Shown: one piece after another, positions 57,023 through 63,116 of the stretch
Layout of the letters: each line of letters opens with the position of its first letter
Position numbering within the stretch: position 1 is the stretch's first letter
Assembly: GCA_031287525.1 (NCBI GenBank)
Contig: JAITSU010000092.1
Coordinates: 1-63,488 of the forward strand
Source of the DNA: Zoogloeaceae bacterium
Lineage (GTDB): Bacteria > Pseudomonadota > Gammaproteobacteria > Burkholderiales > Rhodocyclaceae
Reading direction: 5' to 3'
DNA: 63,488 bases
Position numbers and translations under genes: made by a program
The notes under the pieces: generated by a model
The model's database searches: none
What the model was told of the DNA's origin: nothing
Seen by the model: the letters and a program-made list of their open reading frames with translations, nothing else

Positions 57023-60000
57023 ATGATTAACGAACATTCTTTCAAGGCGCTGCTCCCTTCGCTCGGCTTTGACGCCGACGCAAGCGGCAATATTTTCTCC
57101 AAACGGGTCAATGATTCGGCGGGCAGCTTGTTCGCTGGTGAAATGAAAGCCGATTTTGTCAGAAAGGAGCTTGTCTATCCCGAAGACAGTGGCTTGAAGG
57201 TCAACGGACGCCAAACCTGCAACTTCTCTGCCCCTGAAAACTTTGTCGTCTTCGAGTGCGTTCATCGCCTTCTCGCGCAGGGCTACCAGCCCGCGCACAT
57301 CGAGCTTGAACATTCCGTTACGGTTGGGCATGGCGCCAGCGGCGGTCGGCTCGACATCTGGGTTAAGGACAACGACGGCAAATCCCTGCTCATCATCGAA
57401 TGCAAGACCGCCGGAAAAGAGTTCGAGGACGCATGGAAGGCAACGCAGGAAGATGGCGATCAACTGTTCAGTTACGCCAACGCCCTTGACAGCAAAACAC
57501 CGTTCGTCGCGCTCTACGCCTCGGATTGGGACGGCTCGGAAATCGTTCCCGATTACCGTCTCATCTCCCTGCAAGACAACGAAGAATTCCTGAAAAGTCT
57601 TCCCAAAGACGCGCCAAGTTTCCAGAAAGCCGCCACAGCGAAAGAGCGATTTCGCGCGTGGACGGAAACCTACCGGCAGGATTTCACCACGCGCGGTCTT
57701 TTTGAGCCGGATATTGCCGCCTACACCATCGGCAAAACCAAATACTCAACCCGCGACTTGAAAGAAGTCGACGGCCCGGAAATCCAGAAGAAGTATCACG
57801 AATTCGCCACCATCCTGCGCCAGCACAATGTTTCCGGTCACGAAAACGCCTTTGACAAACTGGTGAATCTCTTTCTCGCCAAAATCGTGGATGAGAACAC
57901 TAACCGTGACGAATTAAAGTTTTACTGGAAGGGCGCGGCGTATGACGACGTTTTCAGCCTGACTGACCGCCTGCAATATCTCTACAAAATCGGCATGAAG
58001 GAATTTTTGGGCGAGGAAGTCACATACATCGACAACAACGACATTGAGAACGCCTTCCACCTTTTCAAGAAGGACGCGACCAAACGAACCATTCTTGCTT
58101 ACTTTCGTGAACTCAAATTTTTCACCAACAATGACTTTGCCTTTATTGATGTCCACAACGAAAAACTTTTCCACCAGAACGCAGCGGTACTCCTGAAAAT
58201 CGTCCGCATGTTGCAGGACATCCGCTTGCAGACCGAAGAATCGCACCAGTTTCTTGGCGACCTGTTCGAGGGCTTTCTGGACAAAGGCGTGAAACAGAGC
58301 GAAGGGCAATTTTTCACGCCCACGCCCATCGTCCGCTTTCTGGTTTCCGCGCTCCCATTGGAAAAACTCGTCTCCGAAATGCCCAAACCGCCCCGCGTCA
58401 TCGACTACGCTTGTGGCGCGGGTCACTTTCTCAACGAATACTGCCACCGGATTTTCCCGTTCGTCCGCAAAAAGCACAGACCGGATGAAGGCGCGGAGAG
58501 TGTTCCTGACAGGGAAACTTTCCAGAAGTATTACGCCGCTGTCACCGGCATTGAAAAGGAATACCGCCTCTCCAAAGTCTCGAAGGTTTCCGCCTCAATG
58601 TATGGGCAAGACGATATCCACATCATTTACGCCGACGCGCTTGCCGCGCATCCTGATGTGGCGGATAACAGCTTTGATGTTCTCATTGCCAATCCGCCGT
58701 ACAGCGTCAAGGGTTTTCTCGAAACCCTTTCCGAAGCAGACCGCGCCCGCTATGACATTTTTTCCGGTAGCGACGACATCACAAAGAACAACTCCATTGA
58801 ATGTTTCTTTGTCGAACGCGCCAAACAGCTTCTTGCCCCCGGCGGCGTCGCCGCCATCATCCTGCCATCTTCGGTGCTCAGCAATACCGGCATCTACACG
58901 CGGATGCGGGAAATCCTGCTCAAATACTTTGACATTGTTGCCATCGCCGAATTCGGTAGCGGCACTTTCGGCAAGACCGGCACCAACACAGCAACCCTCT
59001 TTTTACGCCGCAAGGCGGGCAAACCCGACTTGGCGGAGCATTACCAAAACCGTGTCGAGGCATGGTTTGAGGGCGATTTTTCCAAGGATGATGAATTTGA
59101 CGATTCGCGCCTGCTCGCTGCCTACTGCGCCAAAATTGGTATCCCGCTTGACGACTACAAAACGCTGTTGGCAGGTCATCCCAACGCCGCGCTGATTGAA
59201 GCCGGAATTTTCAAGGAATATCGCAAGGCGTTCGATGCTTCCCCCGAAGTGAAGCGCATCCGGGGAAAACGCCTTTCTGCCCGATACTCGGAAGCCGACA
59301 GCGCCGCCGAACTCGAAAAAGCGTGGCTGAATTTCCTGTGCGCTATCGAAAGCGACAAACTCTATTACTTCATCCTCGCGGCGAACAATCCGCAACCCGT
59401 CGTGTTGGTGAAAAGCCCCGCCGACAACAAGGCGATGAAAACCTTTCTCGGCTACGAATGGAGTTCCCGCAAAGGCGACGAAGGCATCAAATATATTGGC
59501 GCGACAGTTTCCATTGCCGATGACGAAGATGAGGCGCTTTCGCGTAACAAAGGCATTGCCCAAATCAAGACGCCGCTTTTCAATCCCGTTGACCTTGCCG
59601 ATTCGCAGAAAATCAATTCCATTATCCGCGCCGCGTTTAACGGTAAAACTTTGCCTGTCCCCGATTCACTATCAGAGTTTGTTTCGCGCGCTCCGTTGAC
59701 AAGATTGCTGGATTTCAGCCGTGTTACGTTTGATAAGGCTTTCAAGACAATGCCTGAAACGAAAATAGAAATCACGAGCAAGTATCCGTTGGTAAAGTTA
59801 GACGGGTATGTGAATGTTGAATACGGGGACAGGATTGTTAGAAAGAGCGCCACTGGTGACAAATATCCTGTTTATGGTGGTGGTGGAGAAACATTTAGAA
59901 CTGATGAATATAACCGTGAAAGCAGGTTTATAATCTCACGTTTTGGAATGTCGCCGGAATGTGTTCGATTTATTGAAGGTAAATTTTATTTGAATGATTC

Positions 60001-60859
60001 AGGCTTAACTGTTTCCAGTAAAAAAGAGGAGATTATTTCCTCTCGTTTTATTGATTTCTATTTATTCGTTAATCAAGAAACAGTTTTTTTATTTGGACGT
60101 GGGTCGGCTCAAAAAAATATGGACATGGAAGCGTTCAGACAGTTTCAAATCCCCCTTCCACCCCTCGACATCCAGCACCAAATTGTCGCCGGGTGTGAAA
60201 AAGTGGATGAGGAATGCGAAACCGCACGCAAAACCATTGAAGAAAACAAAGCCGCCACTGAAAAAATCATCCTTTCCGTTTTCGGAAAATATGAAACCCG
60301 TTTGCTGGAAAACGTCTGTGATTCGTTCGAGTACGGAACTTCGGCAAAGTCGTCGCCGGTCGGAGAGGTAGCGGTTATTCGGATGGGCAATATTCAGGAA
60401 GGTGCCATAGTCTGGAATGATGTGGTCTATACAAGTGACCCAGTGGAAATCGAAAAATATGCTTTGAAGAAAAACGATGTTCTTTTCAACCGCACGAATA
60501 GTCCGGTATGGGTCGGAAAGACAGGGCTTTACACGGGCGACCGTCCGGCAATTTTCGCGGGATATTTGATTCGCGTGAACTACCAGCCGACGATGCTCAA
60601 TCCCAAATTTCTGACTTACATCCTGAATAGCACCCCTATCCGGGAATATGGTTTTTCCGTCATGTCGAAAGCCATTAACCAAGCCAACATCAGCGCCGGA
60701 TTGCTGAAAAAATACCAAATTCCCGTCCCTCCGCTTGCCGAGCAGAACCGCATCGTTGCCGAAGTCGAAAAATACGAAACCGAAATTGCTTCCGCCCGCG
60801 CCATCCTTGCTGCTGCTCCCGCACGCAAGCATGTTATCCTGAAAAACTTTTTATTTTGA
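57023..60859 (+). CDS. Single-chain restriction-modification enzyme (nuclease-methylase-specificity fusion)
   Basis: A 1278-residue R-M-S fusion. The N-terminal PD-(D/E)XK nuclease of the type I HsdR_N kind has D111 (GRLDIW) and E126-x-K128 (IIECK). The N6-adenine methylase (about 250-700) has motif I DYACGAGHFL (461-470) and motif IV NPPY (557-560). The specificity part has two target-recognition domains (TRD1 about 915-1050; TRD2 about 1090-1270), each followed by IPLPPLD/VPPLAEQ coils. No helicase/translocase domain is present, so it is type IIG/IIB-like and not type I. TRD1 is markedly A+T-rich compared with the rest, suggesting domain replacement. A GHKL-nuclease gene follows 13 bp later. 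Confidence 0.9.
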   Translation: MINEHSFKALLPSLGFDADASGNIFSKRVNDSAGSLFAGEMKADFVRKELVYPEDSGLKVNGRQTCNFSAPENFVVFECVHRLLAQGYQPAHIELEHSVTVGHGASGGRLDIWVKDNDGKSLLIIECKTAGKEFEDAWKATQEDGDQLFSYANALDSKTPFVALYASDWDGSEIVPDYRLISLQDNEEFLKSLPKDAPSFQKAATAKERFRAWTETYRQDFTTRGLFEPDIAAYTIGKTKYSTRDLKEVDGPEIQKKYHEFATILRQHNVSGHENAFDKLVNLFLAKIVDENTNRDELKFYWKGAAYDDVFSLTDRLQYLYKIGMKEFLGEEVTYIDNNDIENAFHLFKKDATKRTILAYFRELKFFTNNDFAFIDVHNEKLFHQNAAVLLKIVRMLQDIRLQTEESHQFLGDLFEGFLDKGVKQSEGQFFTPTPIVRFLVSALPLEKLVSEMPKPPRVIDYACGAGHFLNEYCHRIFPFVRKKHRPDEGAESVPDRETFQKYYAAVTGIEKEYRLSKVSKVSASMYGQDDIHIIYADALAAHPDVADNSFDVLIANPPYSVKGFLETLSEADRARYDIFSGSDDITKNNSIECFFVERAKQLLAPGGVAAIILPSSVLSNTGIYTRMREILLKYFDIVAIAEFGSGTFGKTGTNTATLFLRRKAGKPDLAEHYQNRVEAWFEGDFSKDDEFDDSRLLAAYCAKIGIPLDDYKTLLAGHPNAALIEAGIFKEYRKAFDASPEVKRIRGKRLSARYSEADSAAELEKAWLNFLCAIESDKLYYFILAANNPQPVVLVKSPADNKAMKTFLGYEWSSRKGDEGIKYIGATVSIADDEDEALSRNKGIAQIKTPLFNPVDLADSQKINSIIRAAFNGKTLPVPDSLSEFVSRAPLTRLLDFSRVTFDKAFKTMPETKIEITSKYPLVKLDGYVNVEYGDRIVRKSATGDKYPVYGGGGETFRTDEYNRESRFIISRFGMSPECVRFIEGKFYLNDSGLTVSSKKEEIISSRFIDFYLFVNQETVFLFGRGSAQKNMDMEAFRQFQIPLPPLDIQHQIVAGCEKVDEECETARKTIEENKAATEKIILSVFGKYETRLLENVCDSFEYGTSAKSSPVGEVAVIRMGNIQEGAIVWNDVVYTSDPVEIEKYALKKNDVLFNRTNSPVWVGKTGLYTGDRPAIFAGYLIRVNYQPTMLNPKFLTYILNSTPIREYGFSVMSKAINQANISAGLLKKYQIPVPPLAEQNRIVAEVEKYETEIASARAILAAAPARKHVILKNFLF

Positions 60860-60872
60860 AAGGACAAGAATC

Positions 60873-63116
60873 ATGGAAATCCTCAAACAAACAATAACAC
60901 TCAAAAATTCATGTAATTTTATTAAAAGATCAAAGGATATATTTGCCCCATTGAAAGAAGCTATTACAAATTCACTGGATTCAATATTACAAAGACAAAA
61001 GTCAGAAAAAGCGTTTTCTCCCTTTATCTCTGTGTCCGTTCATTTTAAGGGTTCAAAAGATTTGCTTGATAAGGAAACAAACACCCTAGATTTCATATCT
61101 GTTGAAGATAATGGAATTGGGTTTACGGCGGAGAATCTGAGTCGTTTCAAAGGACTTGCTGAAAACACAAAAGGATTAAATAACAGGGGGACAGGTAAAA
61201 TACAGATATTTTCACGTTTCAATGAACTGTCAATAGATAGCACTTTCACAGAAGATAGCACTTTCACAGAAGATAGAAAGTGGAGTGATCTGAATGTTAT
61301 TTGGAAAATAACTGGCGAATATGAGGATAGATTGATGGAAACAGAAGAGCAATCTGATACAAAGACTGTCGTAAAGATGTCTGGATTTTCCGGCGATGAT
61401 AAAGAGCAAGAATTTTTCACGAGATATTTGGATGACATAGAAGAGTTGAAGCGCGATGTTATGAAACGTTTCTTACTCCGTCTTTGGTTGGGCAGCGTTG
61501 AAAATTCATTGAGCTTAAATATTAAGACATATCTGGACGGAGTTGAACAGGGTTGTTTCATCTTTGACAAGGACAGCATACCTTCTCCCGATAAAAAGGA
61601 GAGCGTGTCAATAGATACAGAACAAGCAAAAATCGTTACGACTAAAAATGATATAAGTAAGTTTCGGATCGATTGGATACTGACCGAGCCAAAAAATGAA
61701 CTGACGATTCATAGGTTCAAACTGCCAAGCAGTGACATGGATGATAATGGCGTTTACATGTGTAGTAAAGACATTGTTGTTGATTCTTTCAGGTTTACGA
61801 TGATTGGATACAAAAATGCTGACTTTAATGGTTATCGTTATTTATCATGTATCAGAGGTGAAATTCTTGATGACCCAGAGAATGTAAGTCAAGCCGTTGA
61901 TGGATTTAATTTTCCTTCCAAAAAAGATATTGAAGCGGATATAAAAAATGGTAATGTTTCTTTATTTAATCCAGAGAACAAATTTGTCTTTTGGGATGAA
62001 ATAAAAAGTAAAGTCGGTGATGGGTTAAAACGGGCTTATTCTGATGTAAGTGGGCTTAGAGAAGCGCATGAAAATGCTATCACCAAGCTGGCTGATCAGT
62101 ATGGAATATCCACTGAAGATGCGGAAGCTACGACTATTCATTTTAATGACACGGAAGAAGAGATCACTGCAAGCTTGTTTGAACAACAGGCAAAGCGTCT
62201 TGCGAAACAAAGCATTGAAATCCAGAAAACCTACGATGAATTGAAAGAATTGAAGATACCGGATTTGAATCCGACTAGCGAGGATTACAGAAGAAAATTC
62301 AAAGAAGTCTCTGAAAAATTATTACAGAAAATCCCTCAACAGAATAGAGACGAACTGGCGCGATATGTCATTCGTCGTAGCATGGTTGTGGACTTGCTGA
62401 AACTTGCTCTCAAAAACGAGCTTTCAATACAAAAGAAATGGGCAGAAAAAAGGGCTGATGGCGAAAACATTCGGCAGGACAAAGAAGGCATTATTCATGA
62501 CCTTGTATTCAAACGTCGCATGAAGGGAGCACCCAATGACCTTTGGATTCTAAATGAAGAATTCGTACATTTTGACGGTTGCTCGGATACAGAACTTGAT
62601 AAATTGGAAATAGGTGGCAAAAAATTATTGCGAGACACCATTGATATTGACGAGGCACTACAGTCGGTTAGAATGGATAAAAAGAAATACTTGAAACAGC
62701 GCCCAGATATATTTATGTTTCCTGAAGAAGGAAAGTGTATTCTAGTTGAATTCAAAGCCCCTGATGTTGAACTATCAGAACATTGCGACCAATTACAAAA
62801 ATATGCTCGACTTATAGCGAATTATGCACAAAAGTCGTTTGTTCAATTCTTTGGCTTTTTAATAGGTGAGACAATTGACAGAAGAAGCATCCCGGGTAGG
62901 TATAGTAAAGTGCCTTATGGCAATTATTGGGTTTATCCTGACGAACCAATAAAATCTATTGACGAAACAGAAATAAAAATTGCAAACATATATCAAGAAA
63001 TAATTCCATTGTCTGAAATCGCCAAGCGTGCAGAAATTCGTAATAGGAGTTTTGCCGAAAAACTTGGCATAACACAGGCTGATTTAGCAAAATCGCAAGA
63101 GACTGAAGGAATATGA
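60873..63116 (+). CDS. MORC/MutL-like GHKL ATPase with C-terminal PD-(D/E)XK nuclease domain
   Basis: A 747-residue protein. The N-terminal GHKL ATP-binding fold has the N-box KEAITNSLDS (E29, N33), G1 box EDNGIGF (D79, G81, G83) and G2 box NRGTGK (G106-G108). A middle S5-like and coiled region (about 200-560) follows. Near the C-terminus RPDIFMF and ILVEFKAP (D612, E626, K628) form a PD-(D/E)XK nuclease signature. Prokaryotic MORC/MutL-like GHKL proteins are known partners of restriction-modification systems. It is very A+T-rich and starts 13 bp after the R-M-S gene behind AAAGGAC, so the pair is one operon. An 18-bp tandem duplication encodes DSTFTEDSTFTE. Confidence 0.8.
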   Translation: MEILKQTITLKNSCNFIKRSKDIFAPLKEAITNSLDSILQRQKSEKAFSPFISVSVHFKGSKDLLDKETNTLDFISVEDNGIGFTAENLSRFKGLAENTKGLNNRGTGKIQIFSRFNELSIDSTFTEDSTFTEDRKWSDLNVIWKITGEYEDRLMETEEQSDTKTVVKMSGFSGDDKEQEFFTRYLDDIEELKRDVMKRFLLRLWLGSVENSLSLNIKTYLDGVEQGCFIFDKDSIPSPDKKESVSIDTEQAKIVTTKNDISKFRIDWILTEPKNELTIHRFKLPSSDMDDNGVYMCSKDIVVDSFRFTMIGYKNADFNGYRYLSCIRGEILDDPENVSQAVDGFNFPSKKDIEADIKNGNVSLFNPENKFVFWDEIKSKVGDGLKRAYSDVSGLREAHENAITKLADQYGISTEDAEATTIHFNDTEEEITASLFEQQAKRLAKQSIEIQKTYDELKELKIPDLNPTSEDYRRKFKEVSEKLLQKIPQQNRDELARYVIRRSMVVDLLKLALKNELSIQKKWAEKRADGENIRQDKEGIIHDLVFKRRMKGAPNDLWILNEEFVHFDGCSDTELDKLEIGGKKLLRDTIDIDEALQSVRMDKKKYLKQRPDIFMFPEEGKCILVEFKAPDVELSEHCDQLQKYARLIANYAQKSFVQFFGFLIGETIDRRSIPGRYSKVPYGNYWVYPDEPIKSIDETEIKIANIYQEIIPLSEIAKRAEIRNRSFAEKLGITQADLAKSQETEGI

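Follow-up and report, generated by a model that had tools for sequence, protein, structure and literature searches.

The window analysed here is the entire contig JAITSU010000092.1 (63,488 bases) from a Zoogloeaceae bacterium. Near its right end it carries two intact open reading frames (ORFs) on the + strand: P0001 (57023–60859; 1278 amino acids (aa)), encoding a type IIG restriction-modification (R-M) enzyme, and P0002 (60873–63116; 747 aa), encoding a predicted fusion of a GHKL ATPase with a PD-(D/E)XK nuclease. We tentatively propose that these genes constitute a two-gene restriction unit in which P0002 would serve as a second-stage nuclease on DNA that P0001 has engaged or broken, newly formed DNA ends being the simplest signal.

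A type IIG enzyme followed by a GHKL ATPase-nuclease

P0001 combines an N-terminal PD-(D/E)XK nuclease, an N6-adenine methylase and a specificity region in one chain, the composition that defines type IIG enzymes such as those of PADLOC entry PDLC03624 and RM.BsaXI (PDB 8w0p). The PADLOC model REase_MTase_IIG matches over the full length of the protein (residues 1–1278, 1458.6 bits), and RM.BsaXI is its nearest sequence in the PDB (E 4.8e-32). The nuclease site, running from D111 to K128 (57353–57406, + strand), is covered by a Pfam HSDR_N_2 match (79–156) that lies barely at the cut-off; D111, E126 and K128 are unchanged in 10/10 aligned type IIG sequences, P0001 included (L121, a relative with an internal stop, was not repaired and does not enter this alignment). 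The methylase core extends from motif I, DYACGAG (461–467), to motif IV, NPPY (557–560), at 58403–58702, within a Pfam N6_Mtase match (408–665); the methylase positions checked are the same in all ten sequences, save Y560, which is F in one. The specificity part (59825–60856) resembles the target-recognition domains of type I specificity (S) subunits, with Pfam Methylase_S matching in two stretches (best 935–1070) and PADLOC type I S models also matching (best 984–1262). Judged by its sequence, P0001 is a complete, ordinary type IIG enzyme, and what is unusual is the downstream gene alone.

P0002 (+ strand) has predicted GHKL ATP-binding motifs at E29/N33, D79-G81-G83 and G106-G108 (60957–61196) and a C-terminal domain (residues 496–747; 62358–63113) with a putative PD-(D/E)XK site at D612, E626 and K628. 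Conservation was assessed in an alignment of P0002 with 64 of its 78 longer relatives (L051 is among those omitted, and the short frames L048 and L054 were excluded). E29, N33, G81, G83, G106, G108, D612, E626 and K628 are invariant in 65/65 sequences, as is E538, a candidate for the first E of an E-D-ExK signature; D79 is kept in 64/65, and the threonine flanked by G106 and G108 (T107) falls outside the invariant set. Single-sequence Pfam matches are weak (HATPase_c, E 0.0037; HSDR_N, E 0.0086), and a PDB sequence search with P0002 alone gave no match. The family profile matched topoisomerase VI B (E 1.3e-4), and an AlphaFold2 model of P0002 (mean predicted local distance difference test (pLDDT) score 84.7) matched the SMCHD1 ATPase module (E 1.2e-11) and Hsp90 in Foldseek. 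For a possible S5 domain behind the GHKL domain, the Foldseek alignments to the SMCHD1 module and Hsp90 extend over ~450 columns, with low template modelling (TM) scores (0.27–0.39 for SMCHD1) and a root-mean-square deviation of ~9. A profile search with the C-terminal part returned matches at E ≥ 0.0076 only, none of them a nuclease; the C-terminal AlphaFold2 model matches PD-(D/E)XK nucleases, the nearest being a nicking enzyme and a Shedu nuclease domain. The latter, from Bacillus cereus (PDB 8ti9), is the nearest fold, yet its identity to P0002 is 12%. A MutL endonuclease domain is absent from the Pfam listing of P0002 at E ≤ 1, no search aimed at that domain having been made. Together, family conservation and two AlphaFold2 models support the assignment of P0002 as a GHKL ATPase joined to a PD-(D/E)XK nuclease.

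The ATG of P0002 lies 13 bp beyond the stop codon of P0001. This gap (60860–60872, + strand) holds a Shine-Dalgarno-like AAAGGA, recognised by eye, and no terminator-like site is listed within it; promoter-like sites number 11 against a shuffle mean of 8.6, which is no excess over shuffles. P0001 and P0002 probably form an operon, and Pfam detects no helicase domain in either protein. An earlier note on this DNA had described a restriction-modification-specificity chain with its own nuclease site and no translocase, followed 13 bp later by a ‘MORC/MutL-like’ protein with GHKL residues and a second nuclease site. The ORFs, their spacing, both sets of catalytic residues and the lack of a translocase are as that note had them, and the structure model bears out the C-terminal nuclease fold that it had wished to see checked. 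The description as a GHKL ATPase-nuclease likewise stands; the ‘MORC/MutL-like’ label is refined to paraMORC3/VcSduA-like for the reasons set out below.

Two further observations concern P0002 itself. An 18-bp unit is repeated 2.3 times without mismatch and in frame within the gene (61235–61276), so that STFTED occurs twice in tandem, perhaps through a recent duplication. The window's genome also encodes a second GHKL-like protein (G000:C6:4630-5067, locus L002), a 690-aa open frame that is 27% identical over P0002 residues 23–173 and has no Pfam match at E ≤ 0.001.

Relationship to paraMORC3 and Shedu proteins

By architecture, P0002 fits paraMORC3, a group that Iyer, Abhiman and Aravind described in 2008 as GHKL-S5 proteins with an extra restriction endonuclease (RE)-fold E-D-ExK domain (PMC2292703). 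P0002 has both elements, a GHKL domain with intact ATP motifs and a C-terminal RE-fold E-D-ExK domain, and the fit is to the 2008 description rather than to the 2008 sequences. In that survey, which like the other papers cited here is drawn upon in excerpt, paraMORCs occur mainly in R-M loci, with emphasis on loci containing helicases, and a nuclease-bearing subset of paraMORC3 is stand-alone, occurring in proteobacteria and bacteroidetes (PMC2292703). The excerpt predicts a role for paraMORC3 in R-M loci and, unlike the arrangement of P0001 and P0002, does not describe a type IIG single chain as the partner (PMC2292703).

The other relevant protein is VcSduA of Vibrio cholerae, a GHKL-Shedu (type I-D Shedu) protein of paraMORC3 organisation, which a 2025 study reported to restrict phage as a one-gene system (PMC12137116). 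Defence was lost in the E27A and K557A variants, so that both the glutamate of the GHKL domain and the lysine of the nuclease are required (PMC12137116). These residues have counterparts in kind in E29 and K628 of P0002, which shares the N-terminal GHKL domain and C-terminal PD-(D/E)xK domain; VcSduA is a single gene, however, whereas P0002 is the second gene behind a type IIG chain. The E-to-K spacing is 530 in VcSduA (from published positions) versus 557–599 in the 65 sequences and 599 in P0002. Because its spacing falls outside this range, VcSduA may represent a sister group to the P0002 family.

VcSduA, compared here by its published description only, is reported to carry DUF4263, whereas the SduA_C/DUF4263 hidden Markov model (PF14082) matches 0/65 P0002-family sequences at E ≤ 0.01. 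Alignment of the family's nuclease with five SduA_C proteins by hhalign gave probabilities of 3% and 2%, and no Shedu model is among the PADLOC matches of the 65 sequences. P0002 is not filed as Shedu because both the SduA_C Pfam search and the profile comparisons were negative. SduA_C itself was present in 7/239 genomes, in each case in an open frame of <500 aa, so that by length none is a GHKL fusion; five of these seven loci supplied the comparison set, the other two having yielded no usable frame.

Restriction operons around the GHKL-nuclease family

A first genome scan with P0002 alone gave 67 pattern matches and no relative, and was rerun with a 9-sequence alignment. The alignment scan, which covered 84,980 species with a single genome each, identified 117 relatives, of which the best 80 by similarity to P0002 were kept. 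These loci are not a random draw, and 30/80 have <3 kb of sequence on one side, so that the restriction linkage given here is a lower bound. The family is rare: of the other genomes in the phylum sample, 3/397 have a member (E ≤ 1e-10), and of those in the bacterial family to which the window belongs, 0/149 (E ≤ 1e-15). Phage records contained no match to P0002; five plasmid records did, one of which (L004) has restriction-type neighbours, a UvrD-like helicase and an Mrr-type nuclease. Viral contigs yielded five relatives of the GHKL family, and a type IIG gene was looked for among these and not found.

Same-strand restriction clusters accompany the GHKL-nuclease gene at 23/80 loci, comprising type I (12), type III (four), type ISP (two), MmeI-like (three), Eco57I-type (one) and C5-methylase (one) systems. 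At several of these the gene is wedged into the operon, either between the S and restriction (R) genes (L051, L063, L076, L039, L041 and L042, with the order methylase (M)-S-GHKL-R in L051 and L063) or between mod and res (L036 and L040); in L030 an unrelated Eco57I-type methylase chain lies directly upstream. Restriction queries matched 21/69 same-strand genes located ≤200 bp from the GHKL gene (20 without L057) versus 3/220 genes beyond 5 kb. Intermediate bins gave 20/261 (other genes within 3 kb), 11/152 (3–5 kb) and 0/19 (≤200 bp, other strand). A chance neighbourhood is thereby rejected for the family, in keeping with the general association that the earlier note had described as known; for the exact P0001–P0002 pair, chance may still be the explanation. 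On a quick tree (no bootstrap, no comparison with shuffles) restriction linkage changes at least 12 times, and one clade spans L025 (type I), L027 (ISP), L028 (type III) and L060 (MmeI-like).

The neighbour count used 31 query proteins from the same loci, including one from the plasmid locus L004 and one from the window, reduced to 29 by omission of Mrr and GmrSD; a gene was scored only if a query from a different locus matched it, and genes of <120 aa were excluded. L057 was dropped as a restriction-linked locus, its neighbour being a TOTE primase-helicase. A restriction gene lies within 200 bp at 18/80 loci (17 counted, minus L057, plus L030 and L050, both by Pfam only), and the 23 include in addition L032, L038, L060, L061 and L075, where it is located farther along the same-strand cluster. 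L022 is counted on the basis of a fragmentary HsdR at a contig end, 198 bp downstream. Excluded were L019, L046, L065 and L090 (opposite strand), L069 (5.2 kb away) and L072, a possible 24th locus, where a same-strand MmeI-like match that is weak lies 1.15 kb downstream. In L039, L040, L041, L042, L052, L059, L060, L061 and L075 the methylase, S or R genes were assigned by blastp; L063 and L076 were tested against Pfam through the identical stretches L013 and L014.

Some loci of the family have features of their own. L025 (type I) and L027 (type ISP) have an exchangeable front and a constant tail: in both, a 707-aa protein with GmrSD-N and Schlafen AlbA_2 domains (by Pfam in L025, by blastp in L027) overlaps the GHKL gene by 4 bp on its downstream side. 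The cluster upstream in L032, L060 and L075 consists of an MmeI-like enzyme, a DEAD-like protein of ~683 aa and a T5orf172-type (GIY-YIG) protein, followed by the GHKL-nuclease; the T5orf172-type protein was seen in L032 and look-alikes in the other two, and the DEAD-like protein of L032 has no PADLOC match. The GHKL genes of L032 and L060 share one larger tree branch, and that of L075 lies on a distant branch. On a plasmid of Pseudoalteromonas piscicida, an RVT_1 reverse transcriptase gene overlaps the end of the GHKL-nuclease gene by 4 bp (L003:11088-12725). Among close relatives of P0002, the genes of L019, L020 and L021 sit 94–110 bp behind similar large recombinase genes in differently named records (Pfam Resolvase/Recombinase for L019; L020 and L021 alike by eye), and one mobile element may carry all three.

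Type IIG relatives and their downstream position

Turning to P0001, type IIG relatives were found in 1/100, 1/397, 4/296 and 3/299 other genomes of four partly overlapping samples. The downstream position was compared in 18 distinct relatives, comprising 10 genomic neighbourhoods and eight distinct viral ones (10 contigs, the identical L134, L135 and L138 counting once); 15/18 have ≥3.5 kb of downstream sequence, and L118, L120 and L133 have <0.4 kb. L106, a 3.3-kb contig on which 307 bases follow the type IIG match, is not among the 18. A P0001 match in the L051 genome (L105) was rejected, as it appears to be L051's own type I S gene, with the GHKL match on the same short stretch.

AAA_5-type genes lie 6–12 bp downstream of the type IIG gene in two of these relatives. 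In L129 (8001–15668) an AAA_5 (McrB-like) gene is followed by McrC (PF10117), and in L114 (5749–11523) an AAA gene with a similar start is located 12 bp downstream. McrC is a PD-(D/E)XK nuclease. McrBC, like P0002, thus brings an NTPase and a PD-(D/E)XK nuclease to the slot behind a type IIG enzyme, although in McrBC these are an AAA+ NTPase and a separate nuclease chain, whereas P0002 is a GHKL fusion. L114 additionally has transposase-like genes, recognised by eye, beside a shorter AAA gene.

Proposed mechanism and alternatives

In the proposed unit, P0001 would methylate its own target sites and cut DNA that lacks the mark. The GHKL part of P0002 would dimerise on ATP in the manner of an Hsp90/SMCHD1/MutL clamp, and this clamp would gate the C-terminal PD-(D/E)XK nuclease; P0002 would then act on the DNA that P0001 has engaged or broken, most simply on the new ends, and so prevent repair of a cut phage genome. 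We infer both the sequential action of the two genes and the role of ends as the signal. For the GHKL-nuclease family as a whole, a shared DNA signal such as ends seems the better candidate because the partner enzymes have in common the cutting of unmarked DNA and not one protein surface, and the variety of partners, with the repeated wedging, points to a function usable by any restriction enzyme. EcSduA, a Shedu nuclease, is reported to bind DNA ends and to nick near them (PMC12904381); this, together with the broken unmodified DNA that the partners share, favours a second nuclease that is gated by ATP and comes into play once the first cut is made. The proposal also draws on the type IIG relatives, where McrBC, another NTP-driven PD-(D/E)XK module, occupies the equivalent position in L129 and a similar AAA gene does so in L114.

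Several observations weigh against a second-stage role for P0002. The exact pairing of a P0001-type enzyme with a GHKL gene was seen once, in the window, and in the DNA available around 18 distinct type IIG relatives, 15 of them with ≥3.5 kb downstream, tblastn detected no GHKL relative (E ≤ 1e-4). The five closest relatives of P0002 (L017–L021, 53–58% identical) have no same-strand restriction gene in the available DNA; for two of them, L018 and L020, that DNA is a short contig, and at L019 a C5 methylase lies on the opposite strand at a distance of 4.1 kb. On these counts the earlier note's view of the GHKL–type IIG pairing as a conserved unit is not supported. No restriction cluster was found at 57/80 loci of the family (30 of the 80 having <3 kb on one side). 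The G+C content is 58% over the first 56 kb of the window, 50.2% in P0001 and 36.9% in P0002, and this contrast between the genes suggests that they came together recently and did not co-evolve for long. Sequence comparison does not connect the P0002 nuclease to SduA_C, and no end-binding test of any GHKL member was met in the literature covered. Finally, a single gene suffices in the case of VcSduA, whose architecture is the same (PMC12137116).

Much of this evidence would also be expected if two independent defence genes were stacked in one transcript, with the 13-bp spacing securing only co-expression and co-transfer and with P0002 self-triggered in the manner of VcSduA. We consider this nearly as likely as a second-stage nuclease, because the closest P0002 relatives and VcSduA stand alone (PMC12137116). 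The 57/80 loci with no restriction cluster found, the 0/18 type IIG relatives with a GHKL gene and the strong G+C difference all agree with stacking, as do the three of the five nearest relatives that lie 94–110 bp behind a recombinase-type gene and thus resemble mobile cargo. Wedging between S and R or between mod and res in several tree branches, with at least 12 changes, nevertheless exceeds what co-transfer needs, and the restriction matches among 21/69 same-strand neighbours versus 3/220 distant genes also argue against it. In the L017 genome, two P0001-like places (35–37% identical, one with an internal stop) occur on other contigs; P0001-like and P0002-like genes can therefore co-occur unlinked, which fits either explanation.

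It is improbable, in our estimation, that P0002 is a back-up effector of the PrrC/RloC kind, silenced by the restriction complex and freed when a phage inhibitor disables that complex. prrC sits within hsd operons, and the position of GHKL genes inside restriction operons can be likened to that of prrC; the occurrence of the family with type I, III and ISP enzymes accords with this. Anantharaman and colleagues proposed such an analogy in 2013 for paraMORC-HEPN proteins in R-M loci (PMC3710099). VcSduA, however, protects without cell death at all infection ratios tried (PMC12137116), cutting DNA seems less suited to cell suicide than cutting tRNA, and most family members have no found partner able to silence them. 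Least probable of the explanations weighed is the model of the earlier note, in which the GHKL clamp would belong to the type IIG enzyme directly as a subunit and bridge molecules of it bound to DNA, with long-range communication replacing a translocase. DNA looping by MORCs and paraMORCs in R-M systems has been proposed by analogy with MutL and topoisomerases (PMC2292703), and the 13-bp gene spacing is tight; against bridging, no conserved pairing with P0001's type IIG family is seen (0/18), and the family also occurs beside type I and III enzymes that already own translocase-type helicases, so that replacement of a translocase cannot be its general role.

The second-stage reading can be extended to a broader and rather doubtful proposal: that many restriction types share a slot, downstream or within the operon, for an NTP-driven PD-(D/E)XK module, paraMORC3 in the window and McrBC in a type IIG relative, which would serve generally as a second stage triggered by breaks. 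The choice between self and non-self would fall to the restriction enzyme, and the plug-in clamp-nuclease would detect broken DNA and finish it.

Other features of the locus

The genes neighbouring the P0001–P0002 pair include a sigma-54 regulator gene (Pfam) and a FliE-like ORF (recognised by eye). The contig stops 372 bp past P0002, within an ORF bearing a P-loop-like motif (by eye), and with the contig ending at 63488 a further downstream gene may exist. The G+C content also falls within P0001 (region 59000–63116), from 52.8% in the first 2000 bases to 44.7% in the last 1059, which looks as if the specificity part was swapped.

Significance

Proteins of this kind have been known since 2008, as paraMORC3, and a 2025 study demonstrated that one with this architecture restricts phage. 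Within the open-licence literature searched, the combination of a type IIG enzyme with a GHKL-nuclease, the breadth of restriction types involved and the same-slot parallel with McrBC were not found in print, nor was any paper found in which GHKL is joined with HsdR and HsdM. R-M enzymes are usually described as complete. If the GHKL-nuclease family is recurrently inserted in type I, III, ISP, MmeI-like and IIG-like operons, many R-M enzymes would gain from a second, ATP-gated nuclease. The P0001–P0002 pair ties the 2008 paraMORC prediction to the 2025 GHKL-Shedu result, and the window presents the simplest case, one enzyme and one partner without a helicase, in which the order of action, the signal and any synergy could be addressed with two genes and point mutants.

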